Shown here: one piece after another, positions 1,644 to 23,825 of the stretch
How positions within the stretch are numbered: the stretch's first letter is position 1
Layout of the letters: every line of letters starts with the position of its first letter
From: a virus
Length of the DNA stretch: 23,825 bases
Strand: one strand, 5' to 3'
IMG/VR virus record: IMGVR_UViG_3300002835_001091
Span: 1-23,825 of that record
Program-made: the position numbers and the translations under genes
The notes under the pieces: generated by a model
The model's input: only the letters and a program-made list of their open reading frames with translations
The model's database searches: none
What the model was told of the DNA's origin: nothing

Positions 1644-3995
1644 ATGAATATTTTAGAAAAAATAATAAACGAATTAAAACTCCAAATTTTTTCAGAGGAG
1701 GAAGTCGGTGATACAAAAATTATTGCAATTTACCCCGGTCGTTTTCAACCGATGGGTCTTCATCATAAGACTTCATACGATTGGTTGGCCAATAAATTTG
1801 GTAAGGAGAATACATATATTGTTACTTCAGATAAAACTGATCCTCAAAGGTCTCCTTTTAATTTTAATGAAAAGAAAAAAATAATAAATAAACATGGAAT
1901 ACAAAATGTTGTAAAGGTAAAAAATCCATATTTACCACGAGAAATTATTTCAAAGTTTGATCCAAAGAAAACTGTTATAGTTTACATGATTGGGGAAAAA
2001 GACGCCGGTAGATTATCGGGGTATAAAAGATTAATGAAGTATAACAAAACAACATTAATTCCATATAAAGATATAGATAATCCGTATGCATATTATGTAT
2101 ATGCACCCCATGTTAAAATAAACATACCCTCATTTGGCGAAATGTCAGGTACAATTATTCGTAAGGCATTAGGAGACCAAGAGGTAAAATTATCAGAGTT
2201 AAAACAAAGATTTAAATCAATCATGGGTTGGTTTGATGCCGATATTTTTAACATGGTGATTAAAAAAATGAATAGTAATCGTGGTAATTTGAAAGAAGAT
2301 TTAAACGAATGGATGAAGGCACTTCTAAACATGACAGATGTTCAAAGTCAATTATTTTTCGGTACTCTTAAAAAAGAATATGGTGACACCAAAGATTTAT
2401 TACCTATAATTCGTAAGTTTATAAAAACAGGAAAACTAACAGATGAGGAAAAGAAAACTTTCCGTAAACAAATGAAAGACAACTTAAAGTTACTTGGTCT
2501 TGGTGCAATAGCGGCAATACCTTTGCCGGGTACTATGTTAATGATTCCTGTAATAATAGAACTTGCTAAAAAAGTCAATATAAATCTTTTACCCGAAAAT
2601 ACAGAACCAAAAAAAGAAAGGTTATCCATAGTTCGTAGAGAATTTTGGGATAAAGTTTTTGAAGGAGTTGTCAAACAAGATGATTTTGTGATTTGTGAAG
2701 AATGTGGAGAGAAGATGAAACAAATACAATATCGTCAAATAAACTCGTCAAATAAAATAGATGCTCGTCAATTACTTGTGTGTGGTGGTGCCGCAGGACA
2801 CATGAGCCATCCGTTTGATGATATGGAGTTGACATTCGGTGATATGAAGGAAATGTTTAAAATGGGATTATCTGGTGAGATAACAACAACAGGTGCCCCG
2901 TCTGAAAAATTAGACGGACAAAATTTATTTGTAACATTTAAGGCCGGTAAATTATATGCCGCTAGAAATAAAGGTGACATTAAAACGGGTGGTATGGACT
3001 ATAAATCCATAACAACAAAGTTTAAAGGGCGAGAACAAATCGAAAGAGCATTCACATACTCCTTTTCAGACTTAGAACAGGCAATACAATCTTTAAGTCG
3101 AAACCAACAACTGATGATTTTTAAGAACGGAACCGTTTGGATGAATCTTGAAATACTTTATCCCGAAACCGAAAATGTTATAAATTATGATGGGGCGTAT
3201 ATTGTTTTTCACGGAAGTGCTGCGTATAATAAAAACGGAGAAAAGGGAAAATCTTATCCAGAATATGCAAATATATTGGCCGGTATGATAAAACAAGTAA
3301 ATGCAGAAACTCAAAAAACATTTAGTATATCCAAACCAAAGGCATTGACTATTGAGAAGTCTAAAAAATTTGAAGATAAATTATTTTATTACGTAAGTGA
3401 ATTAACAAAATTACAAAATAAAATGAAATGTACCGATTCAGATACGCTTGGAATGTGGCATCAAAAATGGTGGGAAAAATATATCAAACAGAATGTAAAT
3501 AGATTGGGGGTATCTATTGATGAAAAAACTATGGAAGGATTAGTGAATAGATGGGCATTTATGGATAAAAAATTTAAGTTGGATAGTAACAATATATCCA
3601 ATGTTGAATTACTTAATTGGGCAAAAGAAGTTGATAAAACAAAATACGAAGAACAACAGAAAAAGAATATTCAACCGTTTGATTCTTTATTTTTAAAATT
3701 TGGGGCAGATGTTCTTAAAAACGTTAAAGATGTTATGTCAATTAATCCAACAAAGGCAACTAATAAAATAAAAACAGAATTAGAAACTGCAATAGATACT
3801 CTTTCAACTTCGAGTGATATTAAAGATTTGGCATTTTTGAAAAAACAATTAAAACGAATTGAGGACGCTGGTGGTATGGATGCAATAGTTCCACTCGAAG
3901 GGGTTGTATTTAATTTTAAAGGTAAAACTTATAAACTAACGGGAACATTTGCCCCAATAAACCAATTATTAGGTTATTTTAAATTTGGTAAATAA
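1644..3995 (+). CDS. Fusion protein: NMN-adenylyltransferase-like domain, LETM1-like segment, RNA/DNA-ligase-type nucleotidyltransferase
   Basis: 783 residues in three recognisable parts. Residues 26-175 look like a cytidylyltransferase/NMNAT fold: YPGRFQPMGLHH at 30-41 is a changed HxGH loop and EMSGTIIRKA at 166-175 matches the ISxTxxR motif. Residues 250-320 (KTGKLTDEEKK, then a hydrophobic stretch and LLPENTE) resemble LETM1-like domains. Residues 350-783 look like a covalent nucleotidyltransferase of the ligase superfamily: CEEC at 351-354, GGAAGHMSHPF at 381-391, motif I EKLDG at 421-425 with Lys422 as the likely AMP-accepting residue, ARNKG at 440-444, MNLEI at 500-504, motif IV LEGVVF at 751-756 and motif V YKLTG at 763-767. 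Likely roles are NAD metabolism plus nucleic-acid end joining or repair. Domain calls are by motif reading; the combined function is unknown. Confidence 0.75.
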   Translation: MNILEKIINELKLQIFSEEEVGDTKIIAIYPGRFQPMGLHHKTSYDWLANKFGKENTYIVTSDKTDPQRSPFNFNEKKKIINKHGIQNVVKVKNPYLPREIISKFDPKKTVIVYMIGEKDAGRLSGYKRLMKYNKTTLIPYKDIDNPYAYYVYAPHVKINIPSFGEMSGTIIRKALGDQEVKLSELKQRFKSIMGWFDADIFNMVIKKMNSNRGNLKEDLNEWMKALLNMTDVQSQLFFGTLKKEYGDTKDLLPIIRKFIKTGKLTDEEKKTFRKQMKDNLKLLGLGAIAAIPLPGTMLMIPVIIELAKKVNINLLPENTEPKKERLSIVRREFWDKVFEGVVKQDDFVICEECGEKMKQIQYRQINSSNKIDARQLLVCGGAAGHMSHPFDDMELTFGDMKEMFKMGLSGEITTTGAPSEKLDGQNLFVTFKAGKLYAARNKGDIKTGGMDYKSITTKFKGREQIERAFTYSFSDLEQAIQSLSRNQQLMIFKNGTVWMNLEILYPETENVINYDGAYIVFHGSAAYNKNGEKGKSYPEYANILAGMIKQVNAETQKTFSISKPKALTIEKSKKFEDKLFYYVSELTKLQNKMKCTDSDTLGMWHQKWWEKYIKQNVNRLGVSIDEKTMEGLVNRWAFMDKKFKLDSNNISNVELLNWAKEVDKTKYEEQQKKNIQPFDSLFLKFGADVLKNVKDVMSINPTKATNKIKTELETAIDTLSTSSDIKDLAFLKKQLKRIEDAGGMDAIVPLEGVVFNFKGKTYKLTGTFAPINQLLGYFKFGK

Positions 3996-6158: not shown

Positions 6159-8894
6159 ATGAGTAAGATATTAAAAGATATTATTCGTGAAGAATATCTT
6201 AAATGTGCAGCGAATCCTGTTTATTTTATGAAGAAATATGCAAAGATTCAACACCCAACAAGGGGGACGATACTTTTTGATTTATGGAACTTTCAGGAAG
6301 ATGTACTTAAAGATTTTCAGGAACATAGATATAATATATGTTTAAAGTCACGTCAGTTGGGTATATCCACACTTATTGCCGGTTACTCATTATGGATGAT
6401 GTTATTTGGTAATGATAAAAATATTCTCGTTATTGCAACAAAACAAGAAACTGCAAAAAATCTCGTTACAAAGGTTCGTGTTATGTATGATAACCTACCT
6501 TCATGGTTAAAGACTGCCGTTGTTGAAGATAATAAACTTTCTCTACGTTTAAAGAATGGTTCACAGATAAAGGCAGTATCTGCCGCCGCAGATGCCGCTC
6601 GTTCTGAGGCACTTTCTCTTCTTATCATAGATGAGGCGGCGTTCATAGATAACATCGAAGAAATATGGGCATCTGCCCAATCCACAATCAATACGGGTGG
6701 TAGTGCAATTATAAATTCAACTCCGAATGGTGTTGGTAATTTTTATCATAAACAATGGGTTGGTGCAAAGACAGGTGAAAATTTATTCAATCCGATATTT
6801 CTTCATTGGACCGTTCACCCTGAGAGAGACCAGTCGTGGCGAGATCAACAAGATATTATCCTTGGCCCTTCACTCGCTGCACAGGAGTGTTTTTCTGGGA
6901 ATGTACGAGTTATGACTGATATGGGATGGAAACCAATATCTGATATAGAAGTTGGTGATTTCGTACTTTCACATAAAGGAAAATTCCAAAGAGTGGTACG
7001 TAAATATGTTGACAGTAAGAATAATTTATACCGAGTAAAAAGCTCTAAAAATTATAAAGATGATTGTTACATAACATCAAACCATCCAATAGCTATAAAA
7101 AATAATCTTGATATTTCATTTATTCCTGTTAATGAATATAATAAAAATATGCATGGGGTACTATCTCCGAATATAGATGGGTTTGATAAAGAAATAACAT
7201 TAGATGTATATGATTTAGTAAGTCCAAAATATTTTAAAAAAGTTCTTTTAGATAATAGTTCACAATTTTATATTAATGACAGAAAACATAAAGTAATTCA
7301 TAACAGATATATTGCCGTTGGATATGATTTTGGATATTTTATTGGACTGTACTTGGCTGAAGGATCCGGATGTAGATTGAGAAAAACATTTTCATTCAAT
7401 GCTCTAACCGAACAGAATACATGGCCAGGTGACGTTCAACGTATATTATCAAATTTATTTGGTATCCAGAACACTCAGATTCGTATAGTAAATCAGTCAT
7501 GTGGTTATTTAAATATATCTTCTGAAATTGTGGCATCGATTATAGATAAATTCGTTGACGGAAATCGTGCATGGAAAAAAAGACTATCGCCGTTTGCCTA
7601 TAAAGTTGGGAATAAAAATTTTTGGAAGGGTGTTTTGGATGGAATATTTACAGGTGATGGGTGTAATACAAAGACTGCAAATCATGCAATATCAATCACT
7701 TCACCGGAATTAAGTTACGATATATTATTTGCAAGTTATATGTCTGGTATATTTGGTGTGTCATCTACAATAAATGAGTCATCTGAAACTGTGTTAAAAA
7801 AATCCAATTTTAGATTGGGAAACAGTACATTACATCATAAATCTACTGTTAGATTTTTAAACACAAAAAATACAGACACCTCACGTATAACACACAATTT
7901 AAATTTAAAGAATGATAATGGTGTACAATGGAATTTTGAAGAAATTGATAATTCTATAATAAAAACCGTTTATAACTTGGAAGTGGAGAATGATAATACT
8001 TATGTTACTGAATTTGGATTAGTGCATAATTGTGACGGCGATTTTCTATCATCCGGTAATTCCGTAGTTGATGGTAATATAATCGATTGGTATCAAAAAA
8101 CTTATGTAACAGAACCAAAAGAACGACGTGGTGCAGAAGACTCACTTTGGATATGGGATTACCCGGATCCAAACAAAACTTACATGATTTGTGCAGATGT
8201 TGCTCGTGGTGATGGAAAAGATTATTCTGCATTTCACATTATAGATATAGAAAACGTAGAGCAGGTCGCCGAATACAAGGGCAAATTAGATACGAAATCT
8301 TTCGGAAATCTTTTAGTTTCGATTGGAACTGAATATAACGATGCATTACTTGTAGTTGAAAACGCAAACATCGGATGGGCGGTGTTACAACAGATAATCG
8401 ATCGTGGTTATACAAATTTATACTACACATATAAAGAAGATGGTTATACCGATCCTTCGGTTCATATTCCAAAGGGGTATGACTTAAAAGATAAATCACA
8501 GATGGTTCCCGGATTCTCAAATACGGCAAAAACACGTCCACTTATAGTTTCAAAATACGAAATGTATTTCAGAGAACGAGTGCCTATTATTAAATCCACA
8601 CGTTTATCCGAAGAAATGTTTGTCTTTATCTGGAAAGGTGGTAGGGCAGAGGCACAAGTTGGTTACAATGATGACTTAGTAATGTCTTTTGCAATAGGTC
8701 TTTGGGTTCGTGATAGTGCCTTAAAACTTCGTCAAGAAGGTTTGACAAGAACTAAGATGAGTTTGGATTATATTACAAAATCTTCTGTTATACTTAATTC
8801 TGCAAATATGATAGATTTGAAATCTAAGACGGGATGGTCTATGGGCGTCGGGGATAACAAGAAAGACGAAGATTTAACTTGGCTTGTAAAATGA
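6159..8894 (+). CDS. Terminase large subunit (gp17-like) carrying an in-frame intein
   Basis: 911 residues, 530 after removal of the intein (244-624). The protein is the ATP-driven DNA-packaging motor and headful nuclease. The ATPase half has a P-loop-like KSRQLGIST at 63-71, where the usual GKT Lys is replaced, Walker B LLIIDE with Asp158 and Glu159, and the coupling motif STPNG at 187-191. The C-terminal RNase H-like nuclease has Asp680 (ICADVARGDG), Glu734 (LVVENAN) and Asp838-Asp839 (GYNDD). The exteins join as AAQE then CDGDF, the normal linker between the two domains. The start ATG follows the previous stop by 3 nt. No small terminase subunit is seen in the window. Confidence 0.95.
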   Translation: MSKILKDIIREEYLKCAANPVYFMKKYAKIQHPTRGTILFDLWNFQEDVLKDFQEHRYNICLKSRQLGISTLIAGYSLWMMLFGNDKNILVIATKQETAKNLVTKVRVMYDNLPSWLKTAVVEDNKLSLRLKNGSQIKAVSAAADAARSEALSLLIIDEAAFIDNIEEIWASAQSTINTGGSAIINSTPNGVGNFYHKQWVGAKTGENLFNPIFLHWTVHPERDQSWRDQQDIILGPSLAAQECFSGNVRVMTDMGWKPISDIEVGDFVLSHKGKFQRVVRKYVDSKNNLYRVKSSKNYKDDCYITSNHPIAIKNNLDISFIPVNEYNKNMHGVLSPNIDGFDKEITLDVYDLVSPKYFKKVLLDNSSQFYINDRKHKVIHNRYIAVGYDFGYFIGLYLAEGSGCRLRKTFSFNALTEQNTWPGDVQRILSNLFGIQNTQIRIVNQSCGYLNISSEIVASIIDKFVDGNRAWKKRLSPFAYKVGNKNFWKGVLDGIFTGDGCNTKTANHAISITSPELSYDILFASYMSGIFGVSSTINESSETVLKKSNFRLGNSTLHHKSTVRFLNTKNTDTSRITHNLNLKNDNGVQWNFEEIDNSIIKTVYNLEVENDNTYVTEFGLVHNCDGDFLSSGNSVVDGNIIDWYQKTYVTEPKERRGAEDSLWIWDYPDPNKTYMICADVARGDGKDYSAFHIIDIENVEQVAEYKGKLDTKSFGNLLVSIGTEYNDALLVVENANIGWAVLQQIIDRGYTNLYYTYKEDGYTDPSVHIPKGYDLKDKSQMVPGFSNTAKTRPLIVSKYEMYFRERVPIIKSTRLSEEMFVFIWKGGRAEAQVGYNDDLVMSFAIGLWVRDSALKLRQEGLTRTKMSLDYITKSSVILNSANMIDLKSKTGWSMGVGDNKKDEDLTWLVK
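6888..8030 (+). mobile_element. Intein with LAGLIDADG homing endonuclease inside terminase
   Basis: 381 residues, in frame, from Cys244 to Asn624 of the precursor. Splicing blocks are complete: Cys1 with CFSGNVRVMT at the N end, GDFVLSH near 23-29, TSNHP at 63-67 (block B His66), the C-terminal VYNLEVENDNTYVTEFGLVHN region ending in His380-Asn381, and Cys as the +1 residue. The central endonuclease has two LAGLIDADG helices, FIGLYLAEGS (intein 151-160, acidic Glu158) and LDGIFTGDG (250-258, acidic Asp257). Both catalytic acids are kept, so it may still be a mobile, active element. Flanking Glu and Cys reconstitute the normal terminase linker. Confidence 0.93.
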
Positions 8895-10889: not shown

Positions 10890-11723
10890 ATGAAAAAAAT
10901 TAAACATTCAAAATATAAGAATACAGGTATGTTGTTTGAACTCTTAACAAGACAGATAACATCCGATATTATTTCCTCAAAGGAATCGGTGGCCACAGAG
11001 ATTTTGAAAAAATTCTTCAATAAGAATAGTGAACTTTTAAAAGAGTATTCACTTTATAAAACTTTGTGTGAACAGAGATTTCCCTCTGAATATAAATCCA
11101 ACATCCTAATCGATGCGGTTTTACGTGCAAGAGGCGCTAACATCGACCGTGGTAAATTAAAGGAAGAAAAATACCAATTAATAAAGGCAATAAACGAAAA
11201 TTTTAATATAGATAATTTTTTTCAAACAAAAGTACAGAACTATAAATTACTGGCATCCATCTATAAGATTTTTGAATATAGTGAATTTGATAATCCTACA
11301 ACATTTACACAATCGAAAGTTACTATAATTGAAAATTTAATGTCTGATAAAAAATCTCGTATTGTTGAGAATCACGTCAGTATTTCGGAAGAACCAAAAG
11401 AAGTTAGATTACTTTCATATAAGATACTTGTTGAGAAGTTTAATACAAAATACGAAGAACTTTCGGCAGAACAGAAAACAATTCTACGTGAATACATTGG
11501 AAACATCAGTAACACTAACAATTTAAAAGACTTTATGAAGACTGAGGCAACTCGTATTCAAGAAGTTCTTACTAAGAAAATAAAATTTGTTAAAGATAAG
11601 CCTTTAAAAATAAAATTGAAAGAAGTCATAGAACTTTTAAATCAATATAAAACACTTAAAACAATAGACGAGAATCATGTATCTGCTTTGTTAAGATATT
11701 ATTCTTTAATAAATGATTTATAA
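10890..11723 (+). CDS. Conserved helical protein of T4-like phages, function unknown
   Basis: 277 residues, basic and almost wholly alpha-helical. The N-terminus (KKIKHSKYKNTGMLFELL, residues 2-19) is the most distinctive part, and I recall it as a conserved start in hypothetical proteins beside the portal gene of marine T4-like phages. No signal peptide, membrane segment or catalytic motif is visible. Position between portal and protease, where T4 has the small prohead core genes 67 and 68, suggests a head-assembly role, but it is far larger than those and sequence similarity to them is not apparent. Confidence 0.75.
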   Translation: MKKIKHSKYKNTGMLFELLTRQITSDIISSKESVATEILKKFFNKNSELLKEYSLYKTLCEQRFPSEYKSNILIDAVLRARGANIDRGKLKEEKYQLIKAINENFNIDNFFQTKVQNYKLLASIYKIFEYSEFDNPTTFTQSKVTIIENLMSDKKSRIVENHVSISEEPKEVRLLSYKILVEKFNTKYEELSAEQKTILREYIGNISNTNNLKDFMKTEATRIQEVLTKKIKFVKDKPLKIKLKEVIELLNQYKTLKTIDENHVSALLRYYSLINDL

Positions 11724-12057: not shown

Positions 12058-12555
12058 ATGAACACAGAGTTATTCATAAAAAAAATACAACAAATGGAAT
12101 CATATCAGAAATTTAAAAATGAATTATCTGAAATGAACGTAACAGGCGCGGTTGCCGGGTATGAAACACCAAACGCGTTTTCCCCATCCGAGAAAGACTT
12201 TGAACGTCATAATAAAGAAACTGCAGAAGTGTATGGTTACACTATGGTTCCAAAGGGAAAGAAACGAAATTTTGAATCGTTATATGTACAGGCAATGAAT
12301 GCGTTACATGAAGGTTCTTATAAATCATATAAGACGGATGAAACAAGAACGGTTAATAGTAAAATAAATCAATCTATAAAAGAAATAAACCGTTCGATAT
12401 ATGAGATAGAACGAGTAGTGAATCACGCTTCACGATTGAAATTAGAAATGGGAGTTGACCAAAGAACTCTATGGTCTTCGTCACACAAAAGACTCCACAA
12501 GATTGGTGAAAGATTAAATAGAATCGGTAAAAAAATTAATGAATTAGGTGCTTAA
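12058..12555 (+). CDS. Helical head-operon protein, function unknown
   Basis: 165 residues. A motif near the N-terminus, VTGAVAGYETPNAF (29-42), is a type of sequence I recall from structural or prohead-associated proteins of marine phages. The remaining part is charged and helical (repeated K-I-N/E-I patterns at 100-165), a likely coiled coil. It lies immediately before the prohead protease, whose ATG at 12557 is just past this stop. A core or scaffold-associated role is inferred from position only. Confidence 0.7.
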   Translation: MNTELFIKKIQQMESYQKFKNELSEMNVTGAVAGYETPNAFSPSEKDFERHNKETAEVYGYTMVPKGKKRNFESLYVQAMNALHEGSYKSYKTDETRTVNSKINQSIKEINRSIYEIERVVNHASRLKLEMGVDQRTLWSSSHKRLHKIGERLNRIGKKINELGA

Positions 12556-12556
12556 A

Positions 12557-13216
12557 ATGAGACAATTACTTGTAGATACAATGCTTTTTAGCATGACTCC
12601 AAAACAAATAAATGAGTCAAGAAAAGAAGACGGTAAAATAATCGTTTCAGGTGTATTGCAACGTGCCGAGGCAAAGAATCAAAATGGACGTATCTATCCA
12701 AAAAAGATTCTTATGCGAGAAGTAAAGAAATACCAAGAAAATCAAATTAAAGAAAATCGTGCTCTTGGTGAGTTGGATCACCCCGATTCATCTGTTATCA
12801 ATCTTCGTAACGTTTCACATAATGTTCTTGATTGTGATTGGGATGGGAATGATGTAGTTGGTCGTGTTGAAATATTACCAACACCTTCGGGAAATATTCT
12901 GAAACAACTTCTTCACGCCGGAATACGATTGGGAATTTCCTCACGAGGATTGGGTTCCGTAAAAGAAGTAAACGAAAATACCGTTGAAGTTCAAGATGAT
13001 TTTGAATTGATTGGGTGGGATTTTGTATCGAATCCGTCAACACAAGGGGCGTTCATGTACAAGGATGGATTGGGTGAAAACATCATAAGAGAAGGTGTTG
13101 ATATGAAAACCATAACTAAAATAGATCCTAAAATTAAACGTATAAATGAAAACATAACAAATATTATTTGTGAAATCGGTAACATCTGTGAATGTATTTT
13201 TGAAGGGAGAAAATAA
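12557..13216 (+). CDS. Prohead maturation protease (gp21-like)
   Basis: 219 residues from ATG 12557. A GTG at 12548 in frame would add three residues and overlap the previous gene; ATG directly after the upstream stop is preferred. It is a herpes-assemblin-fold serine protease that cleaves scaffold and capsid proteins during head maturation. The family motifs are clear: GRIYPKKIL at 44-52, ALGELDHP at 69-76 with catalytic His75, GISSRGLGSV at 126-135 with the catalytic Ser at 128 or 129, and GWDFVSNPS at 153-161, whose Asp155 may complete the triad. The C-terminal 40 residues beyond the domain end in a Cys-containing tail and may be an autocleaved propeptide. Confidence 0.92.
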   Translation: MRQLLVDTMLFSMTPKQINESRKEDGKIIVSGVLQRAEAKNQNGRIYPKKILMREVKKYQENQIKENRALGELDHPDSSVINLRNVSHNVLDCDWDGNDVVGRVEILPTPSGNILKQLLHAGIRLGISSRGLGSVKEVNENTVEVQDDFELIGWDFVSNPSTQGAFMYKDGLGENIIREGVDMKTITKIDPKIKRINENITNIICEIGNICECIFEGRK

Positions 13217-14088: not shown

Positions 14089-15162
14089 GTGATTAAACTC
14101 AAAGATATATTACTTGAAAAAGACAATAAACTTGATAGTGAAAATCCAGATAAAATTCTTGTAAAAAACAAGAAGAGTGGTGAGACGTATTATATCAACA
14201 AAGACAATTTCAACACATCTATCCACGAAAAACCAAAAGGTCAAGAAGACACCAAAACTTCAGACGATAAAAAGTCGAGTGATAAAGATTCAAAAGAAAA
14301 AACTAAAACGGGTGGTATAGATTTGATGGCCGGTATTAGCGACGATGCCGGTGACAAAGATACCAATAAAAAACCAACCGATGATACCGATTCGTTAAAA
14401 TCTAAATTTTTAATGAGTTCGTATGATATGGATAATCTGATTAAAAAATTTAAGGGAATACGTCCTGACTTAGAAGATAAACTTTTAAGATACAATTACA
14501 ATGCCTTATTTGATGAATATAACAATTTACAGATACAAGGCATGGATGACGAGAAATTAAAATCAGTTATAAGAAAATTTCAATCTGTTTCTTTGGCAAA
14601 ATTTAGTTTGTTATCACAAAAAGAAAATGATGTAAATGTTATTGAATCCACAATCATATATCGTAATAATTCAAATGAAATAAATGATATATTGCAGAAA
14701 AAAGAAAAACTGATGACAAGACAACAAGTAGAATCTGAATTAGAAAAAACAGGTCAACCAGAAGAATTAAAATATGAATTGAAAAAAACTCTCGCGATTT
14801 ATGTAATGGATGATCATTTTAAAACATCTGGTGCAAGATTAGAACACCCCGTTACTGTTTATCGTGCGGTTGATAAATCTATAATAGATAGGTTCGATGA
14901 GGCAAATACATGGACAGACAATGGATTTGTCTCTACATCATTGAATCCTATTATTTCCGAAATACCTGAGAATAAAGAAAGAAATCCACTTTTAAAAATA
15001 CACTTAAAAAAAGGGGATCCAGTTTTAATCTTATCTAAAGACGAGGATAAATATTTTTATGAAACTGAAGTTACCTTACCCCGTAAGTGTAGATTTAAAG
15101 TTGGAAAATATGATAAAGTAAAGAACTCATACGATGTTTCTGTGGAGTACCAAAATGCCTGA
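14089..15162 (+). CDS. ADP-ribosyltransferase of the R-S-E class, possible head-packaged effector
   Basis: 357 residues, GTG start 2 nt after the bS21 stop, giving MIKLKDILLEK. Residues 50-105 are a charged, Lys/Asp/Ser-rich linker, and 106-240 are helical. The C-terminal 110 residues carry the classic triad of arginine-type toxins: YRAVD with Arg259, GFVSTSLNP with Ser282-Thr283-Ser284, and YETEV with Glu325-x-Glu327. The enzyme would transfer ADP-ribose from NAD to a host protein. T4 carries related activities (Alt, ModA, ModB), and Alt is packaged in the head and injected. Placement among head genes, before the scaffold, suggests the same for this protein, and the N-terminal segment could be a packaging tag; both are inferences. 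The target is unknown. Confidence 0.8.
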   Translation: MIKLKDILLEKDNKLDSENPDKILVKNKKSGETYYINKDNFNTSIHEKPKGQEDTKTSDDKKSSDKDSKEKTKTGGIDLMAGISDDAGDKDTNKKPTDDTDSLKSKFLMSSYDMDNLIKKFKGIRPDLEDKLLRYNYNALFDEYNNLQIQGMDDEKLKSVIRKFQSVSLAKFSLLSQKENDVNVIESTIIYRNNSNEINDILQKKEKLMTRQQVESELEKTGQPEELKYELKKTLAIYVMDDHFKTSGARLEHPVTVYRAVDKSIIDRFDEANTWTDNGFVSTSLNPIISEIPENKERNPLLKIHLKKGDPVLILSKDEDKYFYETEVTLPRKCRFKVGKYDKVKNSYDVSVEYQNA

Positions 15163-18268: not shown

Positions 18269-19651
18269 ATGAAACGAGTTGTAGATAAAACACCCATTAT
18301 TTGTAAAATATGTTATCGTCATTTAAATGTTGGGGGATTCAGAACTCATTTGCAAATGAAACATCCAGACTATGATACAGATAGGTATGTCTCTGAGTTT
18401 GGTGAATTTAGACCTAAAAAATTAAAACATATAGAAAATACTAATAAAAGTGATATTGTATGTGAAGAATGTAATAAAAAAATGGCAACACATAAAGAAT
18501 TGATGCATCATATACGTGTTCACAACATGAATTACGAACAATATCACATAAAATATAAATTTGGTGGTATTCATCCGGTATGTAAATGTGGATGTGGAGT
18601 TAAGGTTAAAATAATAAAAGGTGGTATTCTTGATGATACGGGTAAACGAGTATTCGCCAGAGACTTTATAACGGGACACAATACCTGTATGTCGATTGGT
18701 GTTCAAACAAGAACTTTTGAGTCAAGAATGAAAATGCGAGAAAGTGCTATAAAACGTATGGAACGAGATGGCAATAGATTTTCCCCAAAAACATCATCGG
18801 CTCAACGAGAAATATATGAATTTATTCAAAGCATATCTGACGGCTTTATGGAACAAGATACTTCATTACTTTATGGCAGAGAGATAGATATAGTAAATCA
18901 TGAAAAAAAAATTGGAATAGAGTACAATGGACTTTATTTTCATTCAGACATTTATAGAGATAGAAAATATCATCTATCTAAATTAAAAGAAATGGAGAAA
19001 CTTGGGTATCGTCTTGTTTATATCTGGGAAGATTGGTGGGTTAGAAAAAAGGAAATTGTAAAATCCATGTTATCGTCGGTTTTGAGTGTAGGCGGTACTA
19101 AGATATATGCTAGAAAATGTGATGTTCGAGAAATAACAGACGAATCTGCGAGAATATTTCTTGGTAAAAATCACATACAAGGGCCATCGGTTTCAAAAAT
19201 ACGAATTGGTCTTTTTTATAACGAAGAACTAGTTTCTGTTATGACCTTTGGGAAATTAAGAGCAACATTGGGAAGTAAGTCAAAAGAGGGTCATTGGGAA
19301 ATGATGAGATTTTGTTCCAGTTTAAATACCACGGTGGTTGGTGGTGCATCTAAATTATTTTCCTTTTTTATAAAGAAATATAATCCAATTTGTGTGATTT
19401 CATTTGCCAATAGAGATTGGTCGGTCGGTAACGTGTATGATAAAATTGGATTCAAACTTCTTGGTGCAACTGAACCTGGATATTTTTATGCAAAAGGTAA
19501 ACGAAGGTTCAATAGATCTATGTTTACAAAACATAAGTTGATAGAATCTGGAGCGGATAAGGCAAAAACAGAATCAATTATAATGAAAGAACGTGGTTAC
19601 ATGAAAATTTGGGACACTGGTAATATTAAATTTGAATGGAAACCCAAATAA
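18269..19651 (+). CDS. Free-standing homing endonuclease: zinc fingers, Vsr-like nuclease, GNAT-like C-terminus
   Basis: 460 residues. Two C2H2-type fingers open the protein (C12-C15-H27-H32 and C65-C68-H81-H85), followed by a small Cys cluster CKCGCG at 105-110. The nuclease core at about 203-257 reads REIDIVN (Asp207), IGIEYNGLYFHSD (Glu218, His225) and GYRLVYIWEDWW, the pattern of Vsr-like/EDxHD phage endonucleases. Residues 278-415 (KIYARKC, LVSVMTFGKLR, VVGGASKLFSFF, DKIGFKLLG) look like a GNAT-type fold often attached to this family. Such genes spread by cutting phage genomes that lack them. It stands between a terminator and the next promoter-like element, with AGGAG only 2 nt before ATG. 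Confidence 0.8.
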   Translation: MKRVVDKTPIICKICYRHLNVGGFRTHLQMKHPDYDTDRYVSEFGEFRPKKLKHIENTNKSDIVCEECNKKMATHKELMHHIRVHNMNYEQYHIKYKFGGIHPVCKCGCGVKVKIIKGGILDDTGKRVFARDFITGHNTCMSIGVQTRTFESRMKMRESAIKRMERDGNRFSPKTSSAQREIYEFIQSISDGFMEQDTSLLYGREIDIVNHEKKIGIEYNGLYFHSDIYRDRKYHLSKLKEMEKLGYRLVYIWEDWWVRKKEIVKSMLSSVLSVGGTKIYARKCDVREITDESARIFLGKNHIQGPSVSKIRIGLFYNEELVSVMTFGKLRATLGSKSKEGHWEMMRFCSSLNTTVVGGASKLFSFFIKKYNPICVISFANRDWSVGNVYDKIGFKLLGATEPGYFYAKGKRRFNRSMFTKHKLIESGADKAKTESIIMKERGYMKIWDTGNIKFEWKPK

Positions 19652-22380: not shown

Positions 22381-23825
22381 ATGAGTAATTGTAGTTCAAA
22401 TAGTGGTATAATCGTAAAAGTGGATTCACAAACTAATGTAGTTCGTGTAATTTCCGAAGGACCACGTGGTGTTTCCGGAACAGCTGGAACATCAGGACAA
22501 ACTTATGGTACATCGGGAACATCCGGATTTTCAGGAAGTTCTGGTACTACCGGTACATCCGGAACATCGGGTAGTTCGGGTACGTCCGGTAGTTCCGGTA
22601 CATCGGGAACACGTGGTTCATCAGGAACATCGGGATCATCTGGAACATCAGGGCAAACTGGGTCTTCAGGGACATCAGGTCAAACTGGTTCATCGGGAAC
22701 ATCAGGACAAAACGGTTCATCTGGAACATCGGGTTCATCGGGAACTTCAGGATCATCGGGTTCATCTGGAACATCAGGACAAACTGGTTCTTCAGGAACA
22801 TCAGGACAAACTGGTTCATCTGGAACATCAGGACAAACTGGTTCATCGGGAACATCAGGACAAAACGGTTCATCTGGAACATCGGGTTCATCGGGAACTT
22901 CAGGATCATCGGGTTCATCTGGAACATCAGGACAAACTGGTTCTTCAGGAACATCAGGACAAACTGGTTCATCGGGAACATCAGGACAAACTGGTTCTTC
23001 GGGAACATCAGGACAAAACGGTTCATCTGGAACATCGGGGTCATCGGGTTCATCGGGAACATCGGGAACATCAGGACAAACTGGTTCTTCGGGAACATCA
23101 GGACAAACTGGTTCATCTGGAACATCAGGACAAAATGGTTCATCGGGAACATCAGGACAAAATGGTTCATCGGGAACATCAGGACAAAACGGTTCATCTG
23201 GAACATCCGGTTCTTCGGGAACATCGGGTTCATCTGGAACATCAGGACAAACTGGGTCATCGGGAACATCAGGACAAACTGGGTCATCGGGAACATCCGG
23301 GTCATCGGGAACATCAGGACAAACTGGTTCTTCAGGGACATCAGGTCAAACCGGTTCTTCGGGGACATCAGGTTCTTCGGGAACATCAGGACAAACTGGA
23401 TCATCTGGAACATCAGGACAAACTGGGTCTTCGGGTACATCAGGTTCATCGGGAACATCAGGACAAACTGGTTCTTCGGGAACATCAGGACAAACTGGTT
23501 CATCTGGAACATCAGGTTCTTCGGGAACGTCTGGAAATTCCGGTGATAGGTATGCAACTACGTCCACAACCTCGTTAACAATAGGTACTGGGTCAAAAAC
23601 ATTAACCGTGGGCACTGGATTACAACTTAGTATAGGTCAATCCGTTATTATTGCATTTGATGATAATAATAAAATGGAAGGCAATATAACGTCGTATAAT
23701 TCCATTACAGGTCAATTAATTGTTAATGTTACAACAATTACTGGATCCGGAACATATTCAAGTTGGAGCGTCTCTTTATCTGGAACACCCGGACCATCCG
23801 GTACGTCAGGAACATCGGGTTCATC
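22381..23825 (+). CDS. Collagen-like tail fibre protein, 5' part (3' end outside window)
   Basis: ATG 22381 opens a frame with no stop to the last base (481 complete codons). The first 26 residues (start MSNCSSNSGIIVKVD) look like an attachment peptide. Residues 27-387 are Gly-X-Y triplets, mainly the nine-residue unit GTSGQTGSS, with one break (GQTY) near the start. Residues 388-467 form a globular beta domain (RYATTSTTSLTIGTGSKTL, then SIGQSVIIAFDDNNKMEG), and a second Gly-X-Y segment starts at 468. It is likely a trimeric fibre, and its partner is probably the BppU-like protein just upstream. Codons differ from the fibre at 1-1599, so the repeats grew independently. Confidence 0.87.
   Translation, partial: MSNCSSNSGIIVKVDSQTNVVRVISEGPRGVSGTAGTSGQTYGTSGTSGFSGSSGTTGTSGTSGSSGTSGSSGTSGTRGSSGTSGSSGTSGQTGSSGTSGQTGSSGTSGQNGSSGTSGSSGTSGSSGSSGTSGQTGSSGTSGQTGSSGTSGQTGSSGTSGQNGSSGTSGSSGTSGSSGSSGTSGQTGSSGTSGQTGSSGTSGQTGSSGTSGQNGSSGTSGSSGSSGTSGTSGQTGSSGTSGQTGSSGTSGQNGSSGTSGQNGSSGTSGQNGSSGTSGSSGTSGSSGTSGQTGSSGTSGQTGSSGTSGSSGTSGQTGSSGTSGQTGSSGTSGSSGTSGQTGSSGTSGQTGSSGTSGSSGTSGQTGSSGTSGQTGSSGTSGSSGTSGNSGDRYATTSTTSLTIGTGSKTLTVGTGLQLSIGQSVIIAFDDNNKMEGNITSYNSITGQLIVNVTTITGSGTYSSWSVSLSGTPGPSGTSGTSGS
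22459..23541 (+). repeat. 27-bp repeats coding Gly-X-Y units (GTSGQTGSS)
   Basis: The main unit is GGAACATCAGGACAAACTGG plus GTTCATC-type ends, 27 bp. It alternates with shorter GTSGSS units in longer blocks: the segment around 22690-22830 is nearly repeated at about 22850-22990. The lack of stop codons in other frames makes long false frames on both strands here. Confidence 0.9.
23782..23825 (+). repeat. Second Gly-X-Y segment of the fibre, cut by window end
   Basis: After the globular insert, triplets resume with GTP, GPS, GTS, GTS and GS- and run off the end of the window. Its full length is unknown. Confidence 0.8.

Follow-up and report, generated by a model that had tools for sequence, protein, structure and literature searches.

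A fused nucleotidylyltransferase and RNA-ligase-type gene of an uncultured T4-like phage probably encodes a head-packaged cargo polyprotein

The window, as we call the whole stretch of DNA analysed here (23,825 nucleotides; IMG/VR virus record IMGVR_UViG_3300002835_001091), carries on its + strand a gene at 1644..3995 that probably encodes a cargo polyprotein packaged into the phage head and processed by the head protease. Its 783-residue product consists of a short leader, an NMNAT-like domain, a variable middle and an RNA-ligase-type domain. In the proposed mechanism, the gene would be expressed late and the leader would act like a T4 capsid-targeting sequence (CTS), bringing the chain into the prohead core. 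A gp21-type prohead protease would cut after [LI]-x-E in the leader and between the modules, freeing at least the NMNAT-like nucleotidylyltransferase and the RNA-ligase-type enzyme. The freed enzymes would remain in the head and enter the host along with the DNA, where their likeliest task would be to mend or modify RNA ends and nucleotide cofactors as soon as infection begins. We infer packaging, cutting, injection and reaction of the window protein, virion presence being published for its relative GC190 only, and for the window copy the step that we trust least is the cutting between modules.

The open reading frame was confirmed, and its product is 100% identical in two further IMG/VR contigs (L001 and L002). 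A relative of its C-terminal domain is encoded in at least 581 IMG/VR stretches (581 of 600 candidates among the matches listed), a family that excludes a chance reading frame. The window itself is a fragment of a T4-like phage, with recognisable genes for a terminase containing an intein, a portal protein, a gp21-type protease, gp23 and PhoH; its gp23 is nearest, among named phages, to that of Microcystis phage Mel-JY01 (75% identity). The gp21-family prohead protease at 12548..13216 (+; Pfam Peptidase_S77, E 3.4e-32) is the proposed processing enzyme. A likely second head cargo is encoded at 14089..15162 (+), where the leader VIKLKDILLE supplies a site ahead of a candidate ADP-ribosyltransferase. 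Its R-S-E motif, picked out by eye, is presumably the ADP-ribosyltransferase pattern, and we liken it to T4 Alt; Pfam and PHROG scans of this product returned no match. Of 158 family loci, 128 have a terminase homologue close to the gene and only 2 a gp21 homologue, the flanks being short. The T4-type late promoter TATAAATA occurs 5 times in the window against 3.6 expected, which is no enrichment, and is absent from the + strand near 1644.

The N-terminal domain (about residues 22-210; 1707..2273, +) is by its predicted fold a HIGH-superfamily, NMNAT-like nucleotidylyltransferase (NTase), with NAD synthesis as a putative activity. The initial annotation had proposed an HxGH-type nucleotidyltransferase here, with a changed HxGH loop and an ISxTxxR-type motif, and the superfamily is borne out. 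The family profile matched PPAT and NMNAT entries of the PDB (best E 4.4e-5), and Foldseek searches with the N-terminal model, which is confident over about residues 25-210, gave NaMN/NMN adenylyltransferases as top matches (best E 4.4e-5). Taken alone, the window protein matches Pfam CTP_transf_like weakly (E 0.0022) and a PHROG cytidyltransferase at 1.6e-7, and scores below the cut-off of NMNAT profile models.

The motifs of this domain are GRFQP (1737-1751), the conserved His41 (1764-1766) and SGTIIR (2145-2162), all on the + strand; the last forms part of MSGTIIR, a motif of the (I/S)SxTxxR type. H41, T170 and R173 are invariant in an alignment of 47 rows, and GRFQP, the second His (H41) and GTxxR are conserved in one of 14 rows. 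The window sequence reads GRFQP-MGLHH and fails the HxGH motif test, since the first His is replaced by Gly, giving GxHH. A canonical loop (HKGH, HRGH or HIGH) is kept in L019/L022, L025 and L021, and GxHH belongs to the window's branch. NMNAT, NaMNAT and PPAT share the fold and the GRFQP, TSDK and SGTxxR motifs with the window NTase, but have HxGH where this branch has GxHH.

The C-terminal domain (residues 381-783; 2784..3992, +) is, by its motifs and family, a predicted covalent nucleotidyltransferase of the RNA-ligase type. Motif I (EKLDG, 2904..2918, +) contains the predicted nucleophile Lys422 at 2907-2909, motif III provides Glu503 (3150..3152, +), and motifs IV (EGVV, Glu752) and V (YKLTG, Lys764) lie at 3897..3935 (+). 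Numbered within the domain, K42 (= Lys422), E123 of motif III, E372-G373 of motif IV and K384 of motif V are invariant in 52/52 aligned relatives, so that the KxDG ligase-type domain with motifs I, III, IV and V claimed initially stands. Since both halves fall into named superfamilies and the Lys is kept throughout, neither a loss of Lys422 in homologues nor two unassignable halves was found.

Structure prediction had been suggested at the outset as a check. The C-domain model (49 sequences; pLDDT 91, pTM 0.86) was compared by VIA, and the best 50 rows were all ligases or capping-type nucleotidyltransferases, at middling Z values (fungal Trl1 8.4, Naegleria Rnl 8.2, T4 Rnl2 7.6, T4 Rnl1 7.5); Foldseek with the same model reached a best E of 1.2e-3. 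Pfam RNA_ligase (PF09414) stays below its curated cut-off for the window protein (14.0 bits vs 27) and matches 23 of 52 members at E up to 0.5, with a best value of 0.0043. A PDB sequence search with the whole protein or the C-domain profile gave nothing relevant. Trl1, Naegleria Rnl, T4 Rnl2 and Rnl1 have motifs I, III, IV and V in the same order as the window domain, which differs from them in having some 200 additional helical residues that separate motif IIIa from motif IV. Unlike in these RNA ligases, no separate nucleic-acid domain was identified in the window C domain.

The case for packaging and processing begins with the leader. MNILEKIINE (1644..1673, +), a putative capsid-targeting leader modelled as a helix over residues 2-15, has an [LI]xE site at residues 8-10; another Glu downstream (residue 18, in IFSE) has Phe at P3 and hence is no strict match. 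T4 gp21 cleaves after L/I-X-E, and the leaders of T4 internal proteins direct them to the head, according to the available portions of PMC9026906 and PMC5694885. [LI]xE occurs in the leader of 34 of the 37 relatives whose leader does not exceed 60 aa; 2,000 shuffles gave 16 on average and never more than 24. In 44 non-redundant proteins, leaders and linkers contain 283 such triplets where shuffling predicts 164; the ligase domain is depleted (61 vs 139 expected), and the NTase has 32 vs 37. Linker controls ([LI]xD, [LI]xN, [LI]xQ, [LI]xS and [VFM]xE) lie near expectation, and [LI]xK, Ex[LI] and [LI]xxE are moderately raised.

The position directly before the ligase is more sharply defined. In 51 non-redundant relatives, P3 is Leu or Ile in 51/51 and P1 is Glu in 45/51, with P2 variable. 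These representatives were required to carry GG..G[HR][ML].HPF[DE], which dropped L025, a relative with no Glu before its ligase; counts outside the 51 are not independent, because loci overlap and include near-identical contigs. A second signature, the N-leader motif G-x-[WY]-[LI]-x-x (as in LGKWLANQI..E), recurs ahead of the ligase: in 94 distinct proteins it occurs 31 times in N-leaders, 6 times within 40 residues upstream of the ligase and twice in about 74,900 other residues.

Counted over whole proteins, the triplet is a blunt tool, because three T4 substrates, Alt, gp67 and gp24, lack an overall excess (z 0.1, 0.4 and 0.7) while the DNA ligase gp30, with no known substrate role, has one (z 2.5). 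Other T4 substrates do show an excess (gp22 z 5.1, gp21 3.1, gp23 2.3, gp68 2.3), as do window genes starting at 10890 (z 4.1), 12548 (the protease, 3.4), 12058 (2.8), 13216 (2.8) and 16509 (2.5). The window fusion protein has no overall excess (10 found vs 8.6 expected, z 0.6), and it has a few triplets inside its domains.

Comparison of the relatives indicates that the middle is a swap zone for unrelated modules, ranging in length from about 4 residues (L063) to over 1,000 (L015). The modules that Pfam recognises in this zone, or ahead of the NTase, are a poly(A) polymerase head (L106, 1e-29), NUDIX (L050, 5e-15), AAA_33/zeta-type kinases (L075, L103, L094) and a zinc-protease model (L072, 2e-7); ParB-like, HExxH and KOW-like labels on other modules were assigned by eye, not by profile. 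The window's own middle (2310..2690, +) is a helical, low-confidence segment common to close relatives only, with 10-residue block means of 30 to 79 from residue 211 onward and no credible Pfam match. An earlier reading of this segment as LETM1-like was abandoned: Pfam listed no LETM1 family for the middle alone at E up to 5, nor at E up to 0.01 when this segment was scanned in a set of 38 that lie in the middle or upstream. Directly after the NTase domain, the family pattern suggests two candidate [LI]xE sites, LKE and LNE (2289..2309, +).

Between this middle and the ligase lies a 31-residue stretch, ICEECGEKMKQIQYR...LLVC (2691..2783, +), which is absent from L003. In L005, a longer in-frame insert occupies the same place (about 855-1565). 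Because the 31 residues match the two ends of that insert, the window seems to have acquired an inserted element and since lost most of it, and we read the stretch, by eye, as the remnant of an inserted homing-endonuclease-like gene. The L005 insert matches phrog_5104 at 7e-10, a family annotated 'unknown function', and no RNA element or group I intron was found at the insertion site at the Rfam gathering threshold (window, L003, L004 and L005). The pre-ligase triplet is LVC in the window where L003 has ITE, the site Glu being replaced by Cys; a chance ICE site is present within 2691-2783. The window copy is less clean than its relatives, having lost the canonical pre-ligase site.

Further support for cutting at these junctions comes from a C45-type Ntn-hydrolase module, found inside fusions and also as separate genes with short leaders. 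The Cys of such a hydrolase must be N-terminal to act. [LI]xE stands directly before the predicted catalytic Cys in 20/20 loci examined, most of them separate genes, and in 3/3 fusions. These 20 were taken from 26 loci; L193 and L195 were left out, as their matches start after the Cys, as were L197, L204, L207 and L208, whose listed identity is the same as that of included loci. In an alignment of 13 members, neither this Glu nor the Cys varies. Pfam AAT (PF03417) is above cut-off in 2 of 5 scanned proteins (L201 and L205), just under it in P0002 and absent for L188 and L198; a search of PDB sequences with the module gave nothing relevant. Genes for the hydrolase alone, with a short leader whose terminal [LI]xE abuts the Cys, were seen at L188-L209 and in Chryseobacterium phage MA9V-1 (L210:2965-3786).

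In one lineage, the pre-ligase Glu is replaced by Met (LLM-GG; L053, L057, L066, L073, L087, L090, L095, L096 and L108). Of 9 distinct sequences of the Met variants, 8 have a Shine-Dalgarno (SD) match of at least 4 bases ahead of that ATG, compared with 30 of 97 at the corresponding position of Glu sequences and 0 of 4 of Cys sequences. The ligase of this lineage may, to judge from these signals, be made by an internal start instead.

Cyanophages provide one of the closest known counterparts. The accessible text of PMC3037559 reports the cyanophage protein T4-GC190, a putative cytidylyltransferase, in S-SM1 virions by mass spectrometry. The S-SM1 GC190 gene product starts MKKFSAFLNE|A, and a gp21-type leader is present on GC190 in S-SM1, P-SSM4 and S-BM1, likewise on the P-SSM2 NTase; such a leader is absent from 3/10 cyanophage-type NTases and 9/11 KWDG proteins read. 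NMNAT-like proteins are reported in S-CREM2 and S-SCSM1 virions in the available parts of PMC10665884 and PMC9602691, whose authors caution that such virion proteins may be co-purified, and the S-SZBM1 proteome table of PMC9146016 includes a cytidylyltransferase.

The NTase of cyanophages usually neighbours, as a separate gene, one for a KWDG protein (T4-GC71 or its counterpart), as in MED4-213, P-HM2, S-CAM9, ACG-2014h, S-BM1, P-SSM4 and S-SM1. One PHROG, phrog_455, covers both, the KWDG part followed by the NTase part. GC190 and GC71 (phrog_455, phrog_3041) thus place an NTase of the same superfamily beside, or fused to, a KWDG nucleotidyltransferase-like protein, and differ from the window protein in their reversed order or lack of fusion. 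Kinship between the KWDG family and the window C domain is stated as possible, because their profile-profile match is weak (E 0.04-0.05, probability 1%); a 591-aa S-PM2 protein (BFVD) matches the C-domain model by fold only, at E 8e-4. In the S-PM2 record, the KWDG and NTase parts form two open reading frames, p141/p142 (L213:38025-39804), probably one fused gene split by sequence differences.

The recurrence of this pair, fused in the window, as adjacent genes in seven cyanophages and joined in phrog_455, would also suit an intact bifunctional enzyme in which, for example, the NMNAT-like domain regenerates NAD from the NMN of NAD-dependent ligation, and the window copy does lack a canonical pre-ligase site. 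We consider this unlikely in view of a middle that varies so widely in length and holds unrelated modules, the [LI]xE triplet before most ligases and Met variants that resemble internal starts. The proposal of the initial annotation that a single polypeptide couples the making or sensing of a dinucleotide to end repair likewise found no support, because the junctions resemble cut sites, the middle is freely replaced and the cyanophage pair is usually encoded by separate genes. A functional link between the NTase and the ligase-type or KWDG protein is nevertheless likely, because the two come together repeatedly: fused, in the opposite order or in adjacent genes.

An RNA or NAD enzyme that is expressed early or in the middle period and never packaged would fit the position of the cyanophage GC71 and GC190 genes, which sit among replication and nucleotide genes outside the head cluster, and the pre-ligase hydrophobic pair with its Glu could then be a structural element. 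This reading appears quite improbable to us: P2 varies freely, one lineage has a start codon in place of the Glu, and the triplet also stands ahead of the Cys in the Ntn module, which is unrelated. Residues 1-8 of the C domain are also modelled as disordered, though the model started there, and GC190 was found in virions in the part of PMC3037559 noted above. Delivery as a whole polyvalent protein sensu Iyer et al. 2017, with any release due to its own peptidase domains, would accord with the many-domain architecture of the relatives, which includes kinase, poly(A)/CCA polymerase, NUDIX and peptidase-like modules. We regard it as very unlikely, since Pfam finds no embedded peptidase domain in the window protein and the junctions fit a head protease, whereas embedded peptidases are the ones named in the available text of PMC5512222.

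The head-packaged cargo polyprotein resembles known systems in part. The internal head proteins and Alt of T4 are led by a CTS, processed by gp21 and injected, and the window protein likewise has a short N-leader ending in [LI]xE and a gp21-family protease encoded in the same genome. T4 cargo, however, consists of single proteins cut near their ends, whereas the window family combines several enzyme modules with leader-like junctions. Polyvalent proteins, as described in the parts available of PMC5512222, are also many-domain phage proteins with conflict-related enzymes; processing is proposed there by embedded peptidases and here by the head protease. The main text of that paper, as far as available, contained no cytidylyltransferase or LETM1, and we found no description of such gp21-cut cargo polyproteins in open-access papers.

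Extended to the family, our reading is that cargo polyproteins occur in many uncultured T4-like phages, with CTS-like leaders and gp21 sites ahead of their modules, and that head maturation itself would cut out a delivered set of RNA- and nucleotide-repair enzymes and, in the case of the Ntn hydrolase, switch the enzyme on; we lean slightly towards this broader proposal. Repair of RNA ends or restoration of NAD and nucleotides at the start of infection is tentatively the likeliest use, given that ligase, kinase, CCA/poly(A) polymerase and NUDIX, the modules found together here, act on RNA ends and nucleotides. If the proposal is true, capsid targeting as known for single T4 proteins also serves polyproteins that are processed within the capsid, and genomes would suffice to predict injected cargo by a rule on sequence, a leader together with [LI]xE. 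The cytidylyltransferase found in cyanophage virions would gain a testable setting, and repair of RNA or NAD as infection begins would look like something that phages of sea and fresh water commonly need. Where the head protease exposes the nucleophile of an Ntn hydrolase, virus maturation would, moreover, activate an enzyme.

Several other features of the window were observed. The terminase large subunit gene (6159-8894) contains an intein-like insert with Hint and LAGLIDADG matches at about residues 244-624. The gene at 18269-19651 encodes a zinc-finger homing endonuclease that resembles Mom-like DNA modification proteins in its C-terminal part (matches to phrog_3339 at 5e-100, phrog_1384 at 4e-10 and PF25680 at 1.2e-5). 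Long low-complexity repeats at 431-799 and 22466-23578, near both ends of the fragment, are probably repetitive structural genes.
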